Origin: Rhizophagus irregularis
Taxonomy: Eukaryota > Glomeromycota > Glomeromycetes > Glomerales > Glomeraceae
NCBI RefSeq assembly: GCF_026210795.1
Contig: NC_089433.1
Location: forward strand, 4,179,001-4,243,000
Reading direction: 5' to 3'
DNA length: 64,000 nt
Shown piece after piece: positions 4,870-42,790 of the stretch (its first letter is position 1; each line of letters starts with the position of its first letter). A program made the position numbers and the translations under genes. The notes under the pieces are model-generated. The model saw only the letters and a list, made by a program, of their open reading frames with translations, was not told the DNA's origin and did not search any database.

Positions 4870-7800
4870 ATGGCAAGCAGTTCCAATAAAAAAAATATTG
4901 ATACAGACAAATTTATTCAATGGGTCGAGGGTGGCGTTGCTGAAGATTATATCAATTGTCATGTTTATAGCGAATTTAAAGATATTAGATTTATAGGTCA
5001 TGGAGCATTTGGTAAAGTATATAAAGCTACTTGGAAAAATTCAAATACTATTGTCGCATTAAAATCTTTTGAGAGAAATAATCTTATTATAAAAGAAATT
5101 GTCAATGAGGTACTGTCGTAATGTTTGTTAGCAGTTACTAGCTAGTAATACTGATTTATCAAATTTCTATGTATAGATAAAATTATTGCATAAAGTTAAT
5201 CTTCATGTAAATATTATTCGGTTTTTTGGTATCGCTAAAAGAGAAAGTAAGTACTAATTATACAAATTTAATTGAAAGATCAAATATAATGATTTAAATT
5301 AATTTATCCATTTTTTATTTAGACAATGAAGATAATATAGATCCAACTTCAAATTATTTGCTTATCCTTGAGTATGCAGATAGTGGTACATTAGGAAATT
5401 ATTTGAAAGATAATTTCAGTAAATTAGATTGGAACGTAAAATTGCAATTTGCAATTCAAATTGCTGATGCAGTCTCATGTATACATCAAAACAATATCGT
5501 TCATTGTGACTTAGTAAGTATTCTATGAACTTCTGATTTTTATTTTTAAATATAAATATACTAATTTAATGTTGCTTTATTAATAAATAGCATTCAGATA
5601 ATATATTAATTCATCAGAATATAGTAAAATTAGCAGACTTTGGACTTTCACGTAAATTAGCTGAAGTATCAACTCAAAATCATATATATGGAAAAATAGC
5701 TTATATTGATCCACAACATTTTCAAGAACAAATAGATAAAAATAATAAAGTTGGTTATCACTATAAACCAAATGAGAAATCAGACGTGTATAGTGTTGGT
5801 GTACTTCTATGGGAGATATCATCTGGGGAAAAACCATTTAAATCATATAATTGTTTTTATCACCAACCAAAATTAATGTTGGAAATTTCAGAGGGAAAAA
5901 GAGAGACACCCATTCCTAATACGCCAAATGATTACATTAACATTTATACAAGTATATTATAAAATATTTGTTTTGATTTACTAATATTAATTTACTAATA
6001 TTTATTCTAACTTATTTTCACAATTTATTTTCTTTTTTAGAATGTTGGAAAAATAACCCAAGTGATCGACCAGATATGCAACAAGTATTGTCAAATCTAA
6101 AATTAGTTAATTTGAATATAATTGACACAAACACTTTATTAATCAATGAAAACGATACTATAATTGCTATTGAAAACAATAAGTCACTCGGTAATGATAA
6201 TATTACTAATAATCAATTAAATTTTAATAATGAAGCTAATGAGCAGATTAATAATATTGATTTAAATAATGAAAATATCATTAATGAGTTATTGTCACTA
6301 TATGAAAATGCTATTCAAAGAGGAATTAGTAAAGAAGATTTTATTCAACTAATTAAGCAACACATAATAATGAAAAATAAAAGCAAAAGAGAAATATTTA
6401 ACTATTTATTAGATAACATGAATAAGCTACAAAATATTTTTCTATTAGCAATTTTTTATCATTATGGAATCATAACTAGTGCAAATGAAATTAAAGCATT
6501 TGAATTATATAAAGAAGCTACTGAAAAAGGTCATAATAATTCTATGAATTATCTTGGAAATTGTTATAAACATGGGATAGGAACTGAAAAAAATGAAATT
6601 AAAGCATTCGAATTATACAATGAAGCAGTTGAAAAGGGTCAAGTTAATGCAATAAGTAACTTAGGATATTGCTATCAATATGGAATAGGAATTGAAAAAA
6701 ATGAAATTAAAGCATTTAAATTATATAATGAAGCAGCTGAAAAAGAATATATTGATTCAATTAATAATCTTGGATATTGCTATCAACATGGAATAGGGAC
6801 TAAAAAAAATGAGGTTAAAGCATTTGAGTTATATAATGAAGCAGCTGAAAAAGAATATATTGATTCAATTAATAATCTTGGATATTGTAATCAATATGGA
6901 ATAGGAACTGAAAAAAATGAAATTAAAGCATTTGAGTTATATAATGAAGCAGTTAAAAAAGGGCATGTTATTTCAATATATCAACTTGGAAAATGTTATC
7001 AACATGGGATAGGAACTGAAAAAAATGAAATTAAAGCATTTAAATTATATAATGAAGCAGCTGAAAAAGAATATATTGACTCAATTAATAACCTTGGATA
7101 TTGTTATCAACATGGAATAGGAACTGAAAGAAATGAGGTTAAAGCATTTGAGTTATATAATAAAGCAGCTGAAAAAGAATATATTGATTCAATTCATAAT
7201 CTTGGATATTGTTATCAACATGGAATAGGAACAGAAAAAAATGAAATTAAAGCATTTGGATTATATAAAAAAGCTGTTGAGAATGATTATATTGATGCAA
7301 TATATAATCTTGCAGAATGTTATTATTATGGAATAGGAACTGAAAAAAATGAAAATGAAGCATTTGAATTATATAAAAAATCAGCTGAAAAAGGAGATAT
7401 TGGTGCAATATATAGACTTGTGGAATGTTATTGTTATGGAATAGGAACTGAGAAAAGTGATATTAAAGCATTTGAATTATATAAAAAGTTAGCTGAAAAA
7501 GGAGATATTGATGCAATATATAATCTTGCAGAATATTATTATTATGGAATAGGAACTGAAACAAATGAAATTAAGGCATTTGAATTATATAAGAATGCAG
7601 TTGAAAATAATCATATTGATTCAATGAAAGATCTTGGATATTGTTATCAACATGGAATAGGAACCAATAAAAATGATATTAAAGCATTTGAATTATATAA
7701 AAAAGCTGTTGAGAATAATCATGTTGGTTCAATGAATGATCTTGGATATTGTTATCAACATGGAATAGGAACTAAAAAAAACGAAATTAAAGCATTCGAA

Positions 7801-29036: not shown

Positions 29037-32000
29037 CTATATTTCGCAGTCCAAACATTCAGAATACTTTGGAAGATCATTTGTAAAGGAATTAAGTAAT
29101 TGTGATGTATAAACAGCTTGTGGATGAGTAATTGATTGTCTTCTTTCCTCAAAAAATGTTTTTTTGTATTCTTCTACTTTTTTAAATTGCTGCTCAATAT
29201 CATAATGTTGCTGTTTTTTTTCTCCAAATAACAAACTTGAATCTGGCACATAGGATTCATGAAATAACTGAATAAATTCTACTATTTCAGTTGCCTTTGG
29301 TCTGTAATCTGGATTTGAATTCCAACATTTCTTCATTAATTCAGTATAACATTTTGGTACTTCTAGCTCATTTATTTCAGGTCTAATTCCCTCACAGATA
29401 TCTAATGCTAACATTTCATTATGCGCACAATTGAAAAAAGGTTGGTTTCCTGTTGCTACAAAATACATAATCATACCAAAGCTATATACATCTGCTGTTT
29501 GAGTATAAGGTTCTCCTCTTAACACTTCAGGAGCCACGTAAGGCATAACTCCATAAAGTTTTGTTTTGTCTGTATTGTCAACTCTTCCACATAATCCCAT
29601 ATCTGATATGCACATTAAATTATAATTATCCAAGGTAATATACATTGATAATATATTTCCTGTATGAAGATCACGATGAACCAGTTGTTTTTCATGAATT
29701 TCTTCAAGACCAGTAATAATATTAAATAATGTATTTATTTTATATGACCAGTCAAATTTACTATAGTGTTTGTTTACCCAATTATATAAACTTCCACCTT
29801 CTGCATAATCAAGAACCATAATATAGTCATTTGTGTTAGGATTTTGAGATAACCCATATATTGAAAGAACATGATTAAGTTCTTTGATGGAATATCCTTT
29901 AATCTATTAAAGTATAATAATAATTATTATTATATTGAAAAGTTTTAAATTGGATAAAAAATTTCATACCTCATTTAAAAATTCAATAGTAATATTTTGT
30001 GAATTGTATAATTGTTTTAAAGCAACTTTTTTCTGATTTCTTGAATATTCATATTCATTATAAGATGATGGTCCATCTTTCCATATTGCTGAATATATTG
30101 TAGCAAACCCACCTTTACCTATTTCTTTAATATTACTAAATCGATTGTGTGGTATCCATTCAAATATTGTATCATCTGCATTATTAATTTTTAATTGTAT
30201 CTCTCGTATTAAATTATCAATTTTTATATTTTCACTAGTCCAGTTTGTAAAATTTCTTTTTAAATCATTTATTTTACATGGTTTACACCATTTATAATAA
30301 GTATCTGTATATTCTTTATCACATTTTTCGCAATATTTATTTTCAATTACTATAATATAATCTTTTGTATTAGGATCTCGAGATATTCCATATATATTAC
30401 TAATTGAATATTCTTCAACCTATTAACATTAAATGTTATTATTAAAAATATATATATATGAATAACATGATTATTTAAATAGAATTTATGGAAAATTACC
30501 TCATCAATAATATTTTGTGAGTACTTTAAAGTAACTCTTAATTTCAGTCTTCTTATCTGATCTTTACTATAAAGATTATCATAATATAAAAAATCATTCT
30601 TCCATATTGCCGAATATATTCTAGTAAAATCATCATTTATTTTCTTAATATTACTAAACTGATTGTATGGAATCCATTCAAATACCATATCCCATTTGCT
30701 ATTAATCTTCAATTGCATATTTTGGATCAGATTATCAATCTTATCGTTATTACTGGTCCAGTTTTTAAAATTTAATTCTAAATAATTTACTTGACATTTC
30801 TTACACCATTCAAATTTAAAATTATTTTCTGTATATTCTTCACCACAACTTTTACAACACAAATCATATTGAAAAACAATAATATATTTTAAATCTTGGT
30901 TTTGAGATATTCCATATACTGGATTATCATTTCTTGATAAATATTTTTTAACCTATAAAGACAAAAAAAAAATAAATTATAATATTTTCCAAAAAAAAAG
31001 AAATTAAAAGTTTTAATACCTCATTTAAGAATTCATCAATATTTTGTAAATTATATAATTTCAACGAAACTTTTTTATTTGATTCTCTTGCCCATTTCTT
31101 ATTATTATGAAGTAATGGACCATCATTCCATACTGCTGAATATATTATTGTACAATTAGTTCTATTTATTTCTTTAATATCATTAAATCGATTGTATGGT
31201 ATAAACTCAAATATTATATCTATAAAAAAGTTAATTTTCAACTGCTTTTGTTTGACTAAATTATCAATTTTTTCATTTCCACTCCAATTAAATAAAAATT
31301 TTTTCAAATAATTTTTGTAGCACAATAAACAAATATATTCTTTAATTTCACCACATTTTTCGCATATTCTACTAAATCCATTTTCAAGTACTATAATATA
31401 ATTTTTCGTGTATGGATTTTGAGAGATTCCAAATATTTTACCATAATATTTATTTAAGTCTTCCTTAATCTATTAAAGTATAAAATTTAATTATTATTAC
31501 CATATTAAATAAAGTATTTAAATTAAATAAAGAAAAATATACCTCATTTAGTAATCCACTATATAATTTTAAAGCAACCTTTATATCCTGCAAATTTCTT
31601 GTATATTCATTTTTATATTTATCAAAACCTAATGGACCATCATTCCATATTGCTGAATATACTTTATCAAAACCTTCTTCACCTATTTCTTTAATGTCAT
31701 TAAACTGGTTGTATGGTATCCATTCAAATATAATATCATCTAGTTTATTAATTTCTAATTGCATTTCTTGAATTAAATTATCAATTTTTTCATTTCCACT
31801 GGTCCAGTTTGTAAAATTTTGTTTTAAATTATTCGTTTGACACGATAAGCACCATTCATAATTTGCATCAAATCTACCTTTATATTTTTTATCACATTTT
31901 TTACAATATAACTTTGGAAAAACTATAATATAGTCTCCCATATCTGGATTTTGTGACACTCCATATATATTAAGACATTTATCAAACTTAATCTATTAAA

Positions 32001-33026
32001 AATAAAAAAAATTAATAAAGAATATTTTCAAATTACGGTACATCTAATCCAAAGAATTCATACCTCATTTAAAAGTTTAATAATATTTTGTGAATTATAA
32101 AAATATTTTAAAGTAACCACTTTATTAGATTTTCTTGCCCATTTCTTCTTGTAATATAATGGGCCATCATTCCATTTTGCAAAATATAATGTATCAATAT
32201 CATCATCACTTATTTTATTTATTTTATGGATATCACTTAATTGATCGTATGGTATCCATTCAAGTACCCATGCTGATTCATAATTGACGCCTGATTGCAT
32301 TACCTGAATTAAATTATCAATTTTTTCATTTCCACTGCCGACCAAATTTTCTTTAAAATAAACTATTTGACATGATTCACACCATTCTTTAATTATATTT
32401 GTATACTTTTTACCACATTTTTTACAATATATTTCTTGAAAAACAATGATATAATCCATTGTATTTGGGCATTGAGATATTCCATACATTCTAAGAACTT
32501 CGCCAATATATGTTATCGAATATTTTTTGCCCTAATAGACGAAAAATAAAAAATATTCTTAATAAAAGATACAATAATTAGGGGTACGAAGAAATTTTAT
32601 TATTACCTGATCTGGCTGATCAATAAAAAATTCATCAATGATATTTTTTAAGTTATATAATTTTAAAGCAACTTTCTTATTCGGCTGATTTCTTGTATAT
32701 TCATTTTTATATTTATCATAATCTAATGGACCATCTTTCCATATTGCTGAATATACTTTATCAAAACTCTCTTCACCTATTTCTTTAATATTATTAAATT
32801 GATCAAATGGTATCCATTCAAATATTAAATCATCCAATTCATTAATTTCTAATTGCATCTCTTGAATTAAATTATCAATTTTTTCATTATCACTGGTCCA
32901 ATTTATAAAATTCTTTTTTAAATTATTTATTTGACATGATTTACACCATTCATACTTTGCATCATATTTACTCTTATATTTTTCGTCACATTTTTTGCAC
33001 TGACCGTAGTTGTCTTGATATGACAT
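29037..33026 (-). CDS. Modular kinase A: six tandem zinc-ribbon/N-lobe exons and one C-lobe
   Basis: One gene model of 1185 residues from seven phase-0 exons: 32607-33026, 32064-32531, 31543-31992, 31020-31469, 30500-30952, 29970-30419 and 29037-29903. Exons 1-6 each carry a ribbon (CxxC...CxxC; C10, C13, C28, C31 in exon 1), usually NWTSGN and KIDNLIQ, then FEWIPYNQF, the IKEIG...VYSAIW strands and a VALK-like lysine. Exons 2-7 start with YGISQNP.T.DYIIV, the strand and hinge after helix C. Exon 6 alone has a good glycine loop (GKGGFATIY). Exon 7 continues the hinge into the C-lobe: HRDLHTGNIL, SDMG in place of DFG, APE. The last module plus exon 7 resembles an ordinary TKL kinase; the first five N-lobes look like pseudokinase halves. 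Several shorter genes or alternative splice forms are possible. Confidence 0.7.
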
Positions 33027-33194: not shown

Positions 33195-33576
33195 TCAGCT
33201 CAGATCACTTGTTAAAACTTGTAAAACTGTAAGACGGAATTGTAAAACAGAAATGTGACACAGTAACACCTGACGAAAATCGCCAATTTCTTATTAAAAA
33301 TTTCTTTTGCAAGTATATTTAAGATAGAGGTTTGCATATACTAACTCATAATTTGTTTTATATTCATATAAATAAATAAATATATTTATTTATTTAATTT
33401 TGTAAGAAATCACAAATGAGAAATATACTGTATATAAAAAAAAATCAGAGACTGCCAAAAAAATTTTACAAATCAATAGATTTCCACCAGTAACTATTTA
33501 AAAAAGGAATGGATTTTTTTGGCGCAAACTCAAAACTGATCTTTTCATGTATACTTTTCGGGTCCTCAAATGAAAC
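33195..33576 (+). repeat. Direct repeat, copy 1
   Basis: About 380 bp from CAGCTCAGATCACTTG to TCGGGTCCTCAAATGAAAC, upstream of kinase array A. Recurs diverged at 34116-34462 in the same orientation, about 920 bp away. Confidence 0.75.
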
Positions 33577-34115: not shown

Positions 34116-34462
34116 CAGTTCGGATCACCTGTAAAAACTTGTAAAACGGAATTGTAAAACGGAAATGTGATTATGTGACGCAGTAACACCTCGTCAATGT
34201 CTTAATTAAAATGTAAGTGTATTAAGATGGAGATTACATATATTGGTTCATAATTTGTTTTACATTCATATAAACAAAAAAAACAATATTTTTACTTAAT
34301 TTTGTAAGAAATCACAAATGATACCCATAATATATATAAAAAAATCTACAAAGCGATAAATTTTCACCAGTAATATTTAAGAGGAGAGAATTTTTTTGGC
34401 TGGTTGTACGCAAACTCGAAACTGACCTTTTCATGTATACTTTTCGGGGTCCTCAAATGAAA
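34116..34462 (+). repeat. Direct repeat, copy 2
   Basis: Second copy of the repeat at 33195-33576. It ends directly against PIG-U homology at 34463. Confidence 0.75.
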
Positions 34463-38020: not shown

Positions 38021-39441
38021 TTAATTTAACTGCTTGTAATAAATAAAATTATTGCTTGATATAAATAATTCACAGTCTAAACATTCAGAATTAAGATCAT
38101 ATTTTGGAAGATCTTTTGTAAAGGGATTAAGTAATCGAGATGTATAAACAGCTTGTGGATGAGTTGCCGATTGTCTTTTTTCCTCTAAAAATAAGAAATT
38201 TGATTCTTTGTATTCTTCTGCTTTCTCAAATTGCTCATTAATATCAAAAGATAACAGCTCATCTTTTTCACTTTTCAAATTGGAGCTATAAGAATCATAA
38301 AATAACTCAATTAATTCTTTTATTTCAGTTGCTTTTGGTCGGTTGTTTGGATTTGAATTCCAACATCTCTTCATTAAATCAATATAACATTTTGGTGCTT
38401 CTGGTTCGTTTATTTCAGGCCTAATTCCTTTGCAGATATCTAACACTAAAATTTCATCATGCGCACAATTGCAAAAAGGTTTCCTGCCAGTTGCTACATA
38501 ATACATAATCATACCAAAGCTGTATATATCTGCCGCTTGAGTATAAGGTTTTCCTCTCAACACTTCAGGAGCTACATAAGGCATAACTCCATAAATTTCC
38601 GTTTTATCTGTACTATCAACTTTTCCACATAATCCCATGTCTGATACGCATATTATATAATTATCTAAGGTATTATACATTGATAATATATTTCCTGTAT
38701 GAAAATCACGATGAACCATATTTTCCTGATGAACTATTTCGAGACCTTCTATAATACTTAACAATGCTTTAATATTATATAACCAATCTAGTTTATTATA
38801 ATATTTGTTTACCCAATTATATAAATCTCCACCTTCCGCATAATCAAGAACCATAACATAATTTTTTGTATCAGGATTTTGAGATATTCCATATATTGAA
38901 AGAACATACTTAAATATTCCAATAGAATATCCTTTAACCTGTTATAACATAATAATTGTTAATGATTATTAAAAGTTATAAATTAAATGAAAGAAAAAAT
39001 TCATACCTCATTTAGAAATTCAATAGTAATGTTCTCTGAATTGTATAATTGCTTTAAAGCAACTTTTTTCTTATCTCTTATATATTCGCAATCATAAGAT
39101 AATGGTCCATCTTTCCATGTTGCTGAATATATTGTAGCAAAACCACCTTTGCCTATTTCTTTAATATTACTAAACTGATTATATGGTATCCATTCAAATA
39201 TTATATCATAGCGGGAGTTAATTTTTAATTGCATCATTTGAATGAAATTATCGATTGTTATATTTCTACTAGTCCAATTGGTAAAATTTTTTTTTAAATC
39301 ATTTATTTGACATGATTTACACCACCACTTATTGAAAGTAGATGTGTATTTTTCATTACATTTCTCGCAATATTCATTTTCAATAACCATAATATATTCT
39401 TTTGTAATAGGATCTTGAGTATAGTTGTTTCCGAAATTCAA
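38021..39441 (-). CDS. Kinase B, surviving single-N-lobe form
   Basis: Two exons (39007-39441 and 38021-38938) give 450 residues from an ATG that lies inside the terminal repeat of the MITE at 39420-40137, then read into array B module 6 in frame. Order: ribbon CEKC...CKSC, NWTSRN, FEWIPYNQF, glycine loop GKGGFATIY, VALKQL, then hinge YVMVLDYAEGG, HRDFHTGNIL, SDMG (DFG variant), APE and RPKATEI. This is a complete ordinary TKL-type domain and probably able to fold. Whether the MITE-borne ATG is used is unknown; the alternative is that this is the inactive tail of a broken array. The C-terminal tail repeats that of kinase A (THPQAVYTS, SECLDCE). Confidence 0.65.
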
Positions 39442-40137
39442 TTGGCAAATCCGAAATCCGAAATTACGAAATCGTAATTAATTACGTATTCCGAAATTCC
39501 GAAATTTGCATAATAGTGCGAAATTGCGAATATCTCGGGATCTAGTGATCAGATTTCAATGATCTTACTACCATTCGATTCGTCTCATCGAGACGAATCT
39601 AATGATATGTGTTTCATTTCTATAGCACCGATATTGATGGAGTTAATTTACTATAAACATTTAATGAATTTTTGTGTCGGAGCACGATCTAGTGATTAGA
39701 TTTGAATGAATTTACCACCATTCGATTCGTCATGACGAGACGATTCTAATGGCGGTAAGATCATCTTTCTAGCATTGAAATTGACGGAGCTATTATGCTA
39801 TAAATATTTAAAAGTTATTGGTATCGGAGCGCGATCTAGTGATTGGATTTAAATGATCTTACTACCATTAGAATCGCCTTATCGAGACGAATCAAATGGT
39901 AGTAAGATCATCCAAAACGGATCACTGGGTGCCGAGTTATTATTTATTAAAGTTTTTATATATAAATCGGCAAAAATTAAGGCTAATTCTGGCCAAATAT
40001 TTTCGTAATACGAAATTAATTACGGAGTCCGAAATTAATTACGGAATACGGAGTTTTTCTAATGAATTACTTAATAATTACAGAATTACGTAATTACGTA
40101 TTTCCGTAATACTAAAATAATTTCGGACACAAGTATA
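39420..40137. mobile_element. hAT-like MITE in kinase array B exon 6
   Basis: A 718-bp element with 19-bp terminal inverted repeats, TATAGTTGTTTCCGAAATT against TATACTTGTGTCCGAAATT (2 mismatches). It is flanked by a perfect 8-bp duplication, ATCTTGAG (39412-39419 and 40138-40145). An 8-bp duplication fits the hAT superfamily. It is non-coding. It holds three direct units of about 147 bp beginning near 39541, 39688 and 39835 (TCTAGTGAT...), each with a hairpin centred on GATTCGTC...GACGA. Confidence 0.8.
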
Positions 40138-42790
40138 ATCTTGAGATATTCCATATTTTTTATGACTTGAATATTTTTCAACCTATTAAAATTTAAAAAT
40201 TATCATATTAAAAATAGTAAAAGTTTTATTTTGAATCAAAATTATGAAATTACCTCATAAGTAATATCTTGTGAATATTTTAAAACAACTTTTGATTTTA
40301 GTTTTCTTATATATTCCTTTTCATAAAGATATTTACAGTAATAAAAATCATTCTTCCATATTGCTGAATATATTTTAGTAAAATCATCAACCTTTATCTT
40401 TTTGATATTACTAAACTGTTTGTAAGGTATCCATTCAAATACTATATCAAATTTGTAAATTTTTAATAATTGCATTTTTTGGATTAAATAATCAATTTCA
40501 TCATCATCATTTTTGCTGGTCCAGTTTGTAAAATTTAATTCTAAATTATCTGATTGACATTTTTTACACCATTCATATTCAATATCAAGTTCCATATATT
40601 CTTCACCACACCTAACACAATATAATTTATATCGAAAAACAATAATGTAGTATCTTGCATCCTGACTTTGAGATATACCATATATTGGATTATTATTATC
40701 TGATAAATATTTTTTAACCTATAAAATTGAATAAAAATACATTACATAAAAATATATGTTTAACAACTTAAGAAATTTTACTATACCTTATTTAAAAATT
40801 CATTAGTATTTTGTAAATAATATAATACTAAAAAAACTTTTTTATATGATTCTCTTGTCCACTTCTTATCGTAATAACATAATGGACCATTATTCCATAT
40901 TGCTGAATATTGTGAAACATAACTATTTTTATTTATTTCTTTAATATCATTGAAGTGATTATATGGTATGAACTCAACTATTGTATCATGCACAGAGTTA
41001 ATTTTTGATCGTTTTATTTGAATAAAATTATCAATTTTTTTATTTCCACTGGTCCAATTTATAAAAAACTTTTTCAAATAATTAATGCAACATAGTCTAC
41101 ACCAACTAAAATATGTATCTAAATACTTTTCATCACACTTATTGCATTTTTCATTATATTCATCTTGAAGAACTATAATGAAATCATTGGTATATGAATT
41201 TTGAGAAATACCAAAAATTTTACCATGATATTTATTTAAATCTTCTTTAAACTATTAGAGTAAAATAATTAATTATTAACGAATTAAAATTAAATTAGAT
41301 AAAGATAATCTCATACCTTATTTAAAAATTCATTATTAATATTTCGAAAGCTATGTAACTTGAGGGTAACCTTTATGTCCTGTTTATTTCTTGTATATTT
41401 ATTTTTAATTTTATCATAATTTAATGGGCCATCCTTCCATATTGCTGAATATTCTTTAATAAAAATTTTTTCTTTAATACTATTAAACTGATTGTACGGT
41501 ATCCATTCAAATATAATGTCATCTGATTCGTTAATTTCTAATTGTATTTCTTGAATTAAACTATCAATTTTTTCATTTCCACTGGACCAGTTTGTAAAAT
41601 TCTGTCTTAAGTTATTTATTTGACACGATAAGCACCACTCATAATTTGCATCAAATATACTTTCATATTGTTTATTACACTTTTTGCAATATATATTTGG
41701 AAAAATCATGATATACTCTTCCGTATATGGATTTTGTGATATTCCATATATATAATCGCAATAAATCTATTAAAATAAAAACAATCAATAAAGAATATTA
41801 TTTTCAAATTAAACTTATAATTAAAGAATTAATACCTTATTTAAAAGATTAATAACATTTGGTGAATCATATAAATATTTTAAAGTAACCACTTTATTAG
41901 ATTTTTTTGTCCATTTCTTCTCATTGTAATATAATGGGCCATCATTCCATTTTGCAGAATATAATGTATCAATATCATCTTCACTTATTTTATGGATATC
42001 ACTTAATTGATCGTATGGTATCCATTCAAATATTATACGTGTATTATAATTGATATTTAATTGTAATTTTTGAATTAAATTATCAATTTTTTTCATTTCC
42101 ACTGCCGACCAAATTTTCTTTAAAATAAACTATTTGACATGATTCACACCATTCTTTAATTATATTTGTATATTTTTTACCACATTTTTTACAATATATT
42201 TCTTGAAGAACAATAATATAATCCAGTGTATTTGGATATTGAGATATTCCATACATTCTAAGAAATTCAATATATGTTGTTGAATATTTTTTACCCTAAT
42301 AGACGAAAAATAAAAAATATTATTAATAAAAGATGCAATAATTAGGGGTACGAAGAAATTTTATTATTACCTGATCTGGCTGATCAATAAAAAATTCATC
42401 AATGATATTTTTTAAGTTATATAATTTTAAAGCAACTCTCTTATTCGGCTGATTTCTTGTATATTCATTTTTATATTCATCATAATTTAATGGTCCATCT
42501 TTCCATATTGCTGAATATACTTTATCAAGACCTTCTTCATCTATTTCTTTAATATTATTAAATTGATCAAATGGTATCCATTCAAATATCACATCATCTA
42601 GTTCATTAATTTCTAATTGCATCTCTTGAATCAAATTATCAATTCTTTCATTATCACTGGTCCAATTTATAAAATTCTTTTTTAAATTATTTAATTGACA
42701 TGATTTACACCATTTATACTTTGCATCATATTTATTCTCATATTTTTCGCCACATTTTGTACACTGATCATCGTTGTCTTGATATGACAT
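40138..42790 (-). pseudogene. Modular kinase B, modules 1-5 and start of 6 (disrupted)
   Basis: Exons matching array A one for one: 42371-42790 (420 nt, as in A), 41836-42295 (460 nt, frameshifted), 41317-41766 (450), 40787-41251 (465), 40254-40718 (465) and the first 45 nt of module 6 (40138-40182), which ends at the MITE. Ribbons and FEWIPYNQF-like lead-ins persist in all modules. Module 2 carries one extra A in the run after GGAAATG (seven T on the + strand near 42086, six in array A), giving a stop after GNEKN. Between that frameshift and the MITE, the full-length product is lost. Modules 1 and 3-5 remain open individually. Confidence 0.7.

Follow-up and report, generated by a model that had tools for sequence, protein, structure and literature searches.

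How does a gene come to encode six copies of one half of a protein kinase domain ahead of a single copy of the other half? This question is raised by a locus of the arbuscular mycorrhizal fungus Rhizophagus irregularis, which we refer to as gene A and which occupies positions 29037-33026 on the minus strand of a 64,000-nucleotide stretch of contig C5 (4179001-4243000; termed the window in the following) in a genome of 146,748,485 bases on 32 contigs. A first-pass annotation of the window had described the gene as a series of kinase N-lobes placed before one C-lobe. We find that this array architecture is well supported and is shared by numerous other loci. Gene A would thus be one gene for a kinase of the tyrosine kinase-like (TKL) type, whose mRNA joins six modules, each of a zinc ribbon and an N-lobe, to a single C-lobe.

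Across gene A, successive stop-to-stop frames of the minus strand line up one after another, and an exon model built from these frames and GT...TAG sites yields seven phase-0 exons running from 33026 to 29037. Their lengths are 420, 468, 450, 450, 453, 450 and 867 nt, every one divisible by 3, and the spliced product comprises 1185 aa. Exon 1 (32607..33026) starts with ATG and encodes a zinc ribbon (CxxC..CxxC), a linker and the N-lobe of module 1 (M1) from beta1 to alphaC, with the loop GEESFD. Exon 2 (32064..32531) continues with beta4-beta5 of M1, followed by the zinc ribbon and beta1-alphaC of M2 with the degenerate loop NKDDID, and the same order is found in exon 3 (31543..31992; beta4-beta5 of M2, then M3, loop GEEGFD), exon 4 (31020..31469; beta4-beta5 of M3, then M4, loop NRTNCT) and exon 5 (30500..30952; beta4-beta5 of M4, then M5, loop N-DDFT). 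In exon 6 (29970..30419), beta4-beta5 of M5 precede M6, which carries the intact loop GKGGFA together with VALK and FLNE, and exon 7 (29037..29903) encodes beta4-beta5 of M6, the hinge and the C-lobe with HRDLHTGN, DMG (not DFG) and APE, up to the stop codon. The six introns on the same strand are located at 32532..32606 (75 nt), 31993..32063 (71 nt), 31470..31542 (73 nt), 30953..31019 (67 nt), 30420..30499 (80 nt) and 29904..29969 (66 nt); all are of the GT...TAG type and in phase 0, so that each acceptor forms an in-frame stop in unspliced RNA. On the DNA level, the modules repeat in register with a spacing of about 520-570 bp and an identity of 66-87% among each other.

This model agrees with the seven phase-0 exons, six ribbon and N-lobe units and one C-lobe of the first-pass annotation, which had, however, equated exons with modules and placed each junction at one and the same position behind helix C. 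Exons 2 to 6 share a layout in which beta4-beta5 of the prior module are followed by a ribbon with four Cys, a helical linker, the motif EWIPY and beta1 to mid-helix C. An exon from exon 2 onwards therefore also carries the end of the prior module, and it is in the protein that a module consists of a ribbon and a full beta1-beta5 N-lobe, the order being six times zinc ribbon and beta1-beta5, then hinge and single C-lobe. The common cut holds for exons 2 to 6; it falls inside helix C, directly after a conserved Glu codon on which these exons terminate and which, from an alignment to Src, we take to be the alpha-C Glu. The end of exon 1 is different (..FFIDQPDQ).

The residues of an active unit come together only in M6 and exon 7, and these two would form the catalytic domain. 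Correspondingly, Pfam kinase models match the gene A protein solely within residues 842-1107, which correspond to M6 and exon 7. The match to PF07714 (TKL/TK-like) covers residues 844-1107 of the whole protein with 151.3 bits, and M6 plus exon 7 taken separately reach 147.2 bits at a curated cut-off of 23.1. As had been claimed, the glycine loop is intact in M6 alone and the VALK-type Lys is kept in M1-M5; the beta-3 Lys is present in all six modules. That the upstream modules are related to the M6-type core is clear from a profile of last-module cores, which found 203 of 203 internal cores and none of 203 shuffled ones; the test cores had been cut from the family alignment with insert residues removed, and 203 of the 209 internal rows were long enough. 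With lost nucleotide-site residues in a kinase-derived domain, M1-M5 would, judged from their sequence, qualify as pseudokinase modules.

Is gene A a lone oddity, as had been supposed at first? The genome was searched with the N-lobe of M6 and with the junction between beta5 and zinc ribbon, and 150 matches were scored in each case (of 4669 and 2194 candidates, respectively). Tandem runs occurred on many contigs among the scored matches of both searches, which rules out a single-gene oddity; the 150 junction matches group into 70 clusters, 31 of these single. We mapped 34 arrays, i.e. 32 loci picked from junction or N-lobe matches and the two arrays of the window, and included 16 further ones, giving a total of 50 arrays examined. 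In each of the 34 mapped arrays, 4-13 N-lobe matches are followed by one C-lobe. The matches add up to 243 including the halves of split modules and to 237 modules once these are merged, with a median of 6 modules per array (range 4-13). The C-lobes show HRD by pattern in 28 arrays, while four others retain the Asp in the form of HHD or HCD; those of L018 and L019 are partial within the loci taken. The arrangement thus recurs through one kinase clade of the genome.

Since the loci had mostly been picked by junction or N-lobe matches, 12 C-lobes were chosen away from junction matches as a bias check, out of the best 150 of 3612 C-lobe candidates. All 12 belong to arrays with at least three N-lobe matches upstream (five of them, on contig C16, look alike), contrary to the expectation that C-lobes at such places would be those of ordinary single-module kinases. 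Among the same best 150 of 3612 candidates, close C-lobe relatives are dense on contig C16 at 2.2-4.7 Mb. A codon pattern for EWIPY gave 2472 matches in the genome compared to 1 for the reversed control; these include other kinases with a single N-lobe, and the pattern recovers 156 of the 243 known module matches. Of the first 100 places listed, which cover C1 completely and C2 in part and are no random sample, 52 sit in runs. Very roughly, these numbers point to about 2000 modules in a few hundred arrays genome-wide.

Among the 243 steps between neighbouring features of the 34 arrays, 227 close as phase-0 GT-AG introns with a median length of 72 nt, the acceptor being TAG at 173 of them. The other 16 steps comprise 10 that remained unclosed by our rule, five modules split across frames and one case of two matches in one frame; all junctions close in 24 of the 34 arrays. 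Because the junction rule prefers certain sites, a control for phase was needed, and the same rule was applied to 237 junctions in all nine phase combinations. The combination 0/0 was found at 227 of the 237 junctions, with a score of at least 3 at 214, and was the best of the nine at 205. This score was reached at 1 junction by phase 1/1 and at none by phase 2/2, while phase-0 donors with phase-1 or phase-2 acceptors attained it at 70 and 62 junctions and the remaining combinations at 0-6. By this control, the phase 0 of the junctions is real. A different kind of evidence comes from L033 (C5:3319500-3325500), where the penultimate and the last module lie in one open frame of 330 aa and the intron is absent at the usual place; a second junction of this locus also lacks an intron, and the gene has frame breaks elsewhere. 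Such intron loss is usually credited to a spliced RNA copy, and on that origin the locus would indirectly indicate that adjacent modules are spliced together in mRNA.

These findings leave hardly any room for the notion that the upstream modules are separate short genes, or dead remnants beside a kinase gene. N-lobe pieces without a C-lobe do exist, since three degenerate ones lie at about 9.7-10.8 kb of the window (minus strand), with no C-lobe match, likely as the remnant of another array. However, exons 2 to 6 of gene A start at splice acceptors, phase-0 introns recur over the 34 arrays, L033 has lost the intron between its last two modules with the frame kept there, and purifying selection acts on every module, as detailed below. 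We presume that the array is spliced and translated at full length.

Within the arrays, the last module differs from the others in its motifs. The second Gly of the loop is present in 49 of 50 last modules compared to 19 of 261 others. This holds for the 34 mapped arrays (33/34 versus 11/209, where mostly Asp, a gap or Asn takes its place), for the 16 further ones (16/16 versus 8/52; rows were counted only where the loop region was covered, and a gap at the Lys was scored as not Lys) and for those of the bias check taken by themselves (12/12 versus 6/38). In the mapped arrays, both loop Gly occur in 30 of 34 last modules and 5 of 209 others, the beta-3 Ala in 32 of 33 and 40 of 202, and the alpha-C Glu in 31 of 32 and 118 of 195, respectively. 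In 63 of these 195 other modules a Lys takes the place of the Glu, with AAR as codon that is also usable as donor end. The counts at the Lys omit one last and seven other gapped rows, and those for the Glu two last and 14 other rows without a resolved donor. In 33 of the 34 genes, the last module has more loop Gly than its fellow modules have on average. The dozen most divergent columns all lie in or beside the loop, the VALK Ala or helix C, except for the weakly conserved insert column 90. In contrast, the zinc-ribbon Cys are kept at 94-100% in last modules and at 93-97% in the others, and several Trp and core positions exceed 90% in the modules. These counts support the claim of one kinase with an N-lobe array on a single C-lobe, in which only the last module can complete the active site.

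The same residues bear on the possibility that the exons are alternative cassettes. Variable or mutually exclusive splicing would then connect exon 7 with a single N-lobe exon or with a chosen subset, and the isoforms would differ in their N-lobes or in array length. The internal exons are symmetric in phase 0 and have equivalent ends, so any subset stays in frame, and exon 1 joined to exon 7 would restore the layout of one ordinary kinase. With TAG acceptors at 173 of the 227 junctions, intron retention there would stop translation. Mutually exclusive use would, however, require working loops throughout, and from the distribution of the second Gly we reject it as the main mode; in addition, L033 holds two modules fixed in one exon. 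We therefore regard a cassette function as unlikely. Plain exon skipping in which the last module is always retained may occur.

Are the upstream modules maintained as protein? Codon models were run on gene A, gene B (see below), L001, L002 and L003, which have the same six modules in register. Module 2 of gene B, being split between frames, and module 5 of L001 were excluded, which leaves four genes each for M2 and M5. The ratio of nonsynonymous to synonymous rates (omega) was 0.169 for M1, 0.308 for M2, 0.344 for M3, 0.523 for M4, 0.428 for M5, 0.278 for M6 and 0.269 for the C-lobe, with M4 (exon 4) being the least constrained. Twice the log-likelihood difference to omega 1 was 45.9, 18.2, 23.9, 10.2, 12.9 and 33.1 for M1-M6 and 65.0 for the C-lobe; the null was run with three kappa values, which makes these gains slightly generous. 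Among 48 reciprocal nearest pairs across genes, of which one internal pair was unusable, the nonsynonymous (dN) was lower than the synonymous distance (dS) in 9 of 9 pairs of last, 24 of 26 of internal, 7 of 9 of first and 2 of 3 of mixed position. Together, omega and the pairs indicate that the internal modules are retained as protein, M1 most strongly.

The main rival reading holds that the arrays are a by-product of easy exon duplication, with idle extra N-lobes that are kept open since frame loss or misfolding would kill the kinase behind them. The variable copy number of 4-13, the frame-split modules at 5 of 243 steps and the omega of 0.52 for M4 fit such idleness, and a burden of folding alone could account for part of the residue pattern. 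It is less easily reconciled with a first module that is more constrained than the C-lobe (omega of 0.17 versus 0.27) and with losses that concern mainly nucleotide-site residues and spare ribbon Cys, several Trp and core positions. We give this explanation some weight and still consider it improbable.

The history of the modules was assessed in a tree of 235 modules, from which the motif columns had been excluded and eight of 243 rows dropped as gappy; few of its branches are supported. For 26 of 34 last modules, the nearest row is a last module from another gene, and for 23 of 34 first modules it is another gene's first module. On this basis we reject that modules cluster purely by gene, as would be expected for recent independent arrays. 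A nearest row within the same gene was found for 67 of 167 internal modules and for 1 of 34 last modules. The ends of the arrays therefore look old and stable, and the middle appears to expand. Some exchange may take place within a gene: M3 of gene A (exon 3) has M1 as its nearest relative with 87% nucleotide identity, compared to 81-85% to module 3 in each of four paralogs, and looks partly overwritten from M1. This is what would be expected if internal modules served other modules as a donor bank for gene conversion, like silent cassettes. Yet, with a same-gene neighbour in just one of 34 last modules, there is no sign that the active module is rewritten from a bank, and we deem this role very improbable.

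Regarding the origin of the arrays, we infer a duplication route. The region behind beta5 may have been fused to the start of the zinc ribbon, which would have created a symmetric phase-0 exon of beta4-beta5, ribbon and beta1-alphaC. Such an exon can be duplicated or deleted without a frame break, and with a repeat unit that is cut through helix C, array length is free to evolve; growth would chiefly have occurred among internal modules, the first and the last staying in place. Three kinase loci at isolated EWIPY sites on contig C1 (L048-L050) bear on the age of the introns. All three encode a single N-lobe with an intact loop, preceded by the EWIPY linker and several CxxC pairs, and they differ from the arrays by showing none in the 2.0-2.2 kb fetched for each. 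Their conservation stops after the same FLNE as at the array introns, so this intron is probably older than the arrays.

Taken together, we consider it likely, on the basis of these sequence comparisons, that gene A encodes a single colinear kinase, whose N-terminal array consists of N-lobes with dead nucleotide sites that act as docking or regulatory modules. In M1-M5 the nucleotide pocket would largely be lost (the loop Gly and, across the family, the beta-3 Ala and in many cases the alpha-C Glu), and purifying selection would keep ribbon Cys, linker helix and N-lobe core as non-catalytic modules. The most speculative part is that the dead N-lobes offer the active domain, or its partners, surfaces for docking or allosteric contact. 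In TKL kinases such as RAF and RIPK, control is exerted through N-lobe contacts, and by this analogy, with the core kept and much of the pocket lost, we judge such a role to be the most likely one.

Several observations weigh against this interpretation. Singly, none of M1-M5 matched a Pfam kinase model at E up to 0.1, so the profile check proposed in the first-pass annotation failed to identify them as kinase domains, and a profile of M1-M5 gave four matches in the PDB up to E 10, none of them a kinase. The model predicted for exon 3 from an alignment of 11 window sequences has seven strands and a mean predicted local distance difference test score (pLDDT) of 72.3, and kinases account for 48 of the best 50 of its 608 Foldseek matches; these are weak, the best E being 0.41 and none of the 608 reaching 0.001. 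A search by VIA gave a best Z of 4.1 over 62 residues, and both results are too weak to prove the fold. The exon places beta4-beta5 of the prior module ahead of its own beta1-alphaC, which is not a natural domain order. In ten of the 34 arrays, at least one junction remained unclosed, a module is split or a frame is shared. Of the 227 closed junctions, 13 score below 3 and 10 have introns longer than 120 nt. Our junction rule gives preference to sites close to the expected position, so that the finding of introns at the same place is partly built in. Among the non-last modules, 179 of 202 retain the beta-3 Lys, which is unlike a simple loss of ATP binding. At L036-L040 on C16, the penultimate loop reads GKGHF or DKGHF, and it is VALKC that is replaced by VALVC, VALLC or VTLLC. 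Finally, the modules are related, and a tree-corrected sign test was left with two supported independent pairs (17 on all branches) and had no power.

At L036-L040, the penultimate module also lacks the insert between beta2 and beta3, and the matches of earlier modules begin past the zinc ribbon. The second array of the window, gene B (38024..42790, minus strand), has six modules and lies about 5 kb from gene A; its module 2 is split over two frames and an unassigned stretch of about 0.8 kb precedes module 6, while its last module (GKGGFA) and C-lobe are open. Two 111-nt repeats upstream of gene A (33332-33442 and 34234-34344) are 82% alike. At 4881-5944 on the plus strand of the window, fragments of another kinase match N-lobe and C-lobe weakly. 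In L034 (C2:1574500-1580500), at 1601-2396 of the locus, the start of an exon has expanded ahead of beta4 into a long Asp-rich, acidic repeat. A different subtype is represented by L051 (C2:393000-396000, with the run extending to C2:399748), with 11 consecutive EWIPY sites, the reduced cysteine ribbon CKQCNNICNA, AKGGFG in the last module and three degenerate modules preceding it.

How do the arrays relate to known systems? Kinases are expanded in R. irregularis, with 2,533 kinase genes given in one report (PMC10234402), PF07714 as most frequent motif in the counts of another (PMC6123716) and the expansion also reported in a third (PMC4219462, citing Tisserant 2013). The last module and C-lobe of gene A match the same PF07714; the accessible parts of these reports count kinases and describe no N-lobe arrays. 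MLKL-like pseudokinase homologs with Sel1 repeats are likewise kinase-related and, among the fungi studied, occur only in Glomeromycotina, but the portions of that study available to us describe no zinc ribbons or repeated N-lobes for them (PMC8778642). Plant tandem kinases such as Yr15/WTK1 and Lr9/WTK6-vWA of wheat resemble the arrays in combining a functional kinase and pseudokinase material in one chain (PMC10260399). They repeat the whole kinase or pseudokinase domain, typically one each, whereas here N-lobe modules alone are repeated 4-13 times; with one C-lobe per array, none of the 34 mapped arrays has the two or more domains with both lobes that define the plant type. In JAK-type pseudokinase-kinase pairs and in GCN2, a dead kinase-related domain located N-terminal to the active kinase regulates it. 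These have one pseudokinase domain and no repeated half-domains with zinc ribbons. The available text of the open-licence papers searched yielded no description of N-lobe arrays.

Kinase evolution is usually told in whole domains, with both lobes inherited together. In the arrays, the N-lobe has become separated from its partner and is repeated ahead of a single C-lobe at many sites of a genome, and the loop glycines are kept almost exclusively where a module can meet the C-lobe. The natural series of 4-13 modules offers a way to probe which functions an N-lobe can perform in the absence of a C-lobe. For arbuscular mycorrhizal fungi, the arrays give structure to a known but unexplained kinase expansion, and they call for caution, as array genes may be split or fused wherever kinases are counted or genes modelled in such genomes. 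Tentatively, and going by sequence, the arrays might even constitute a kinase class of perhaps a few hundred genes, by a rough count, in which a tunable chain of dead modules has been selected as a docking or allosteric platform, probably in symbiosis-related or environmental signalling.

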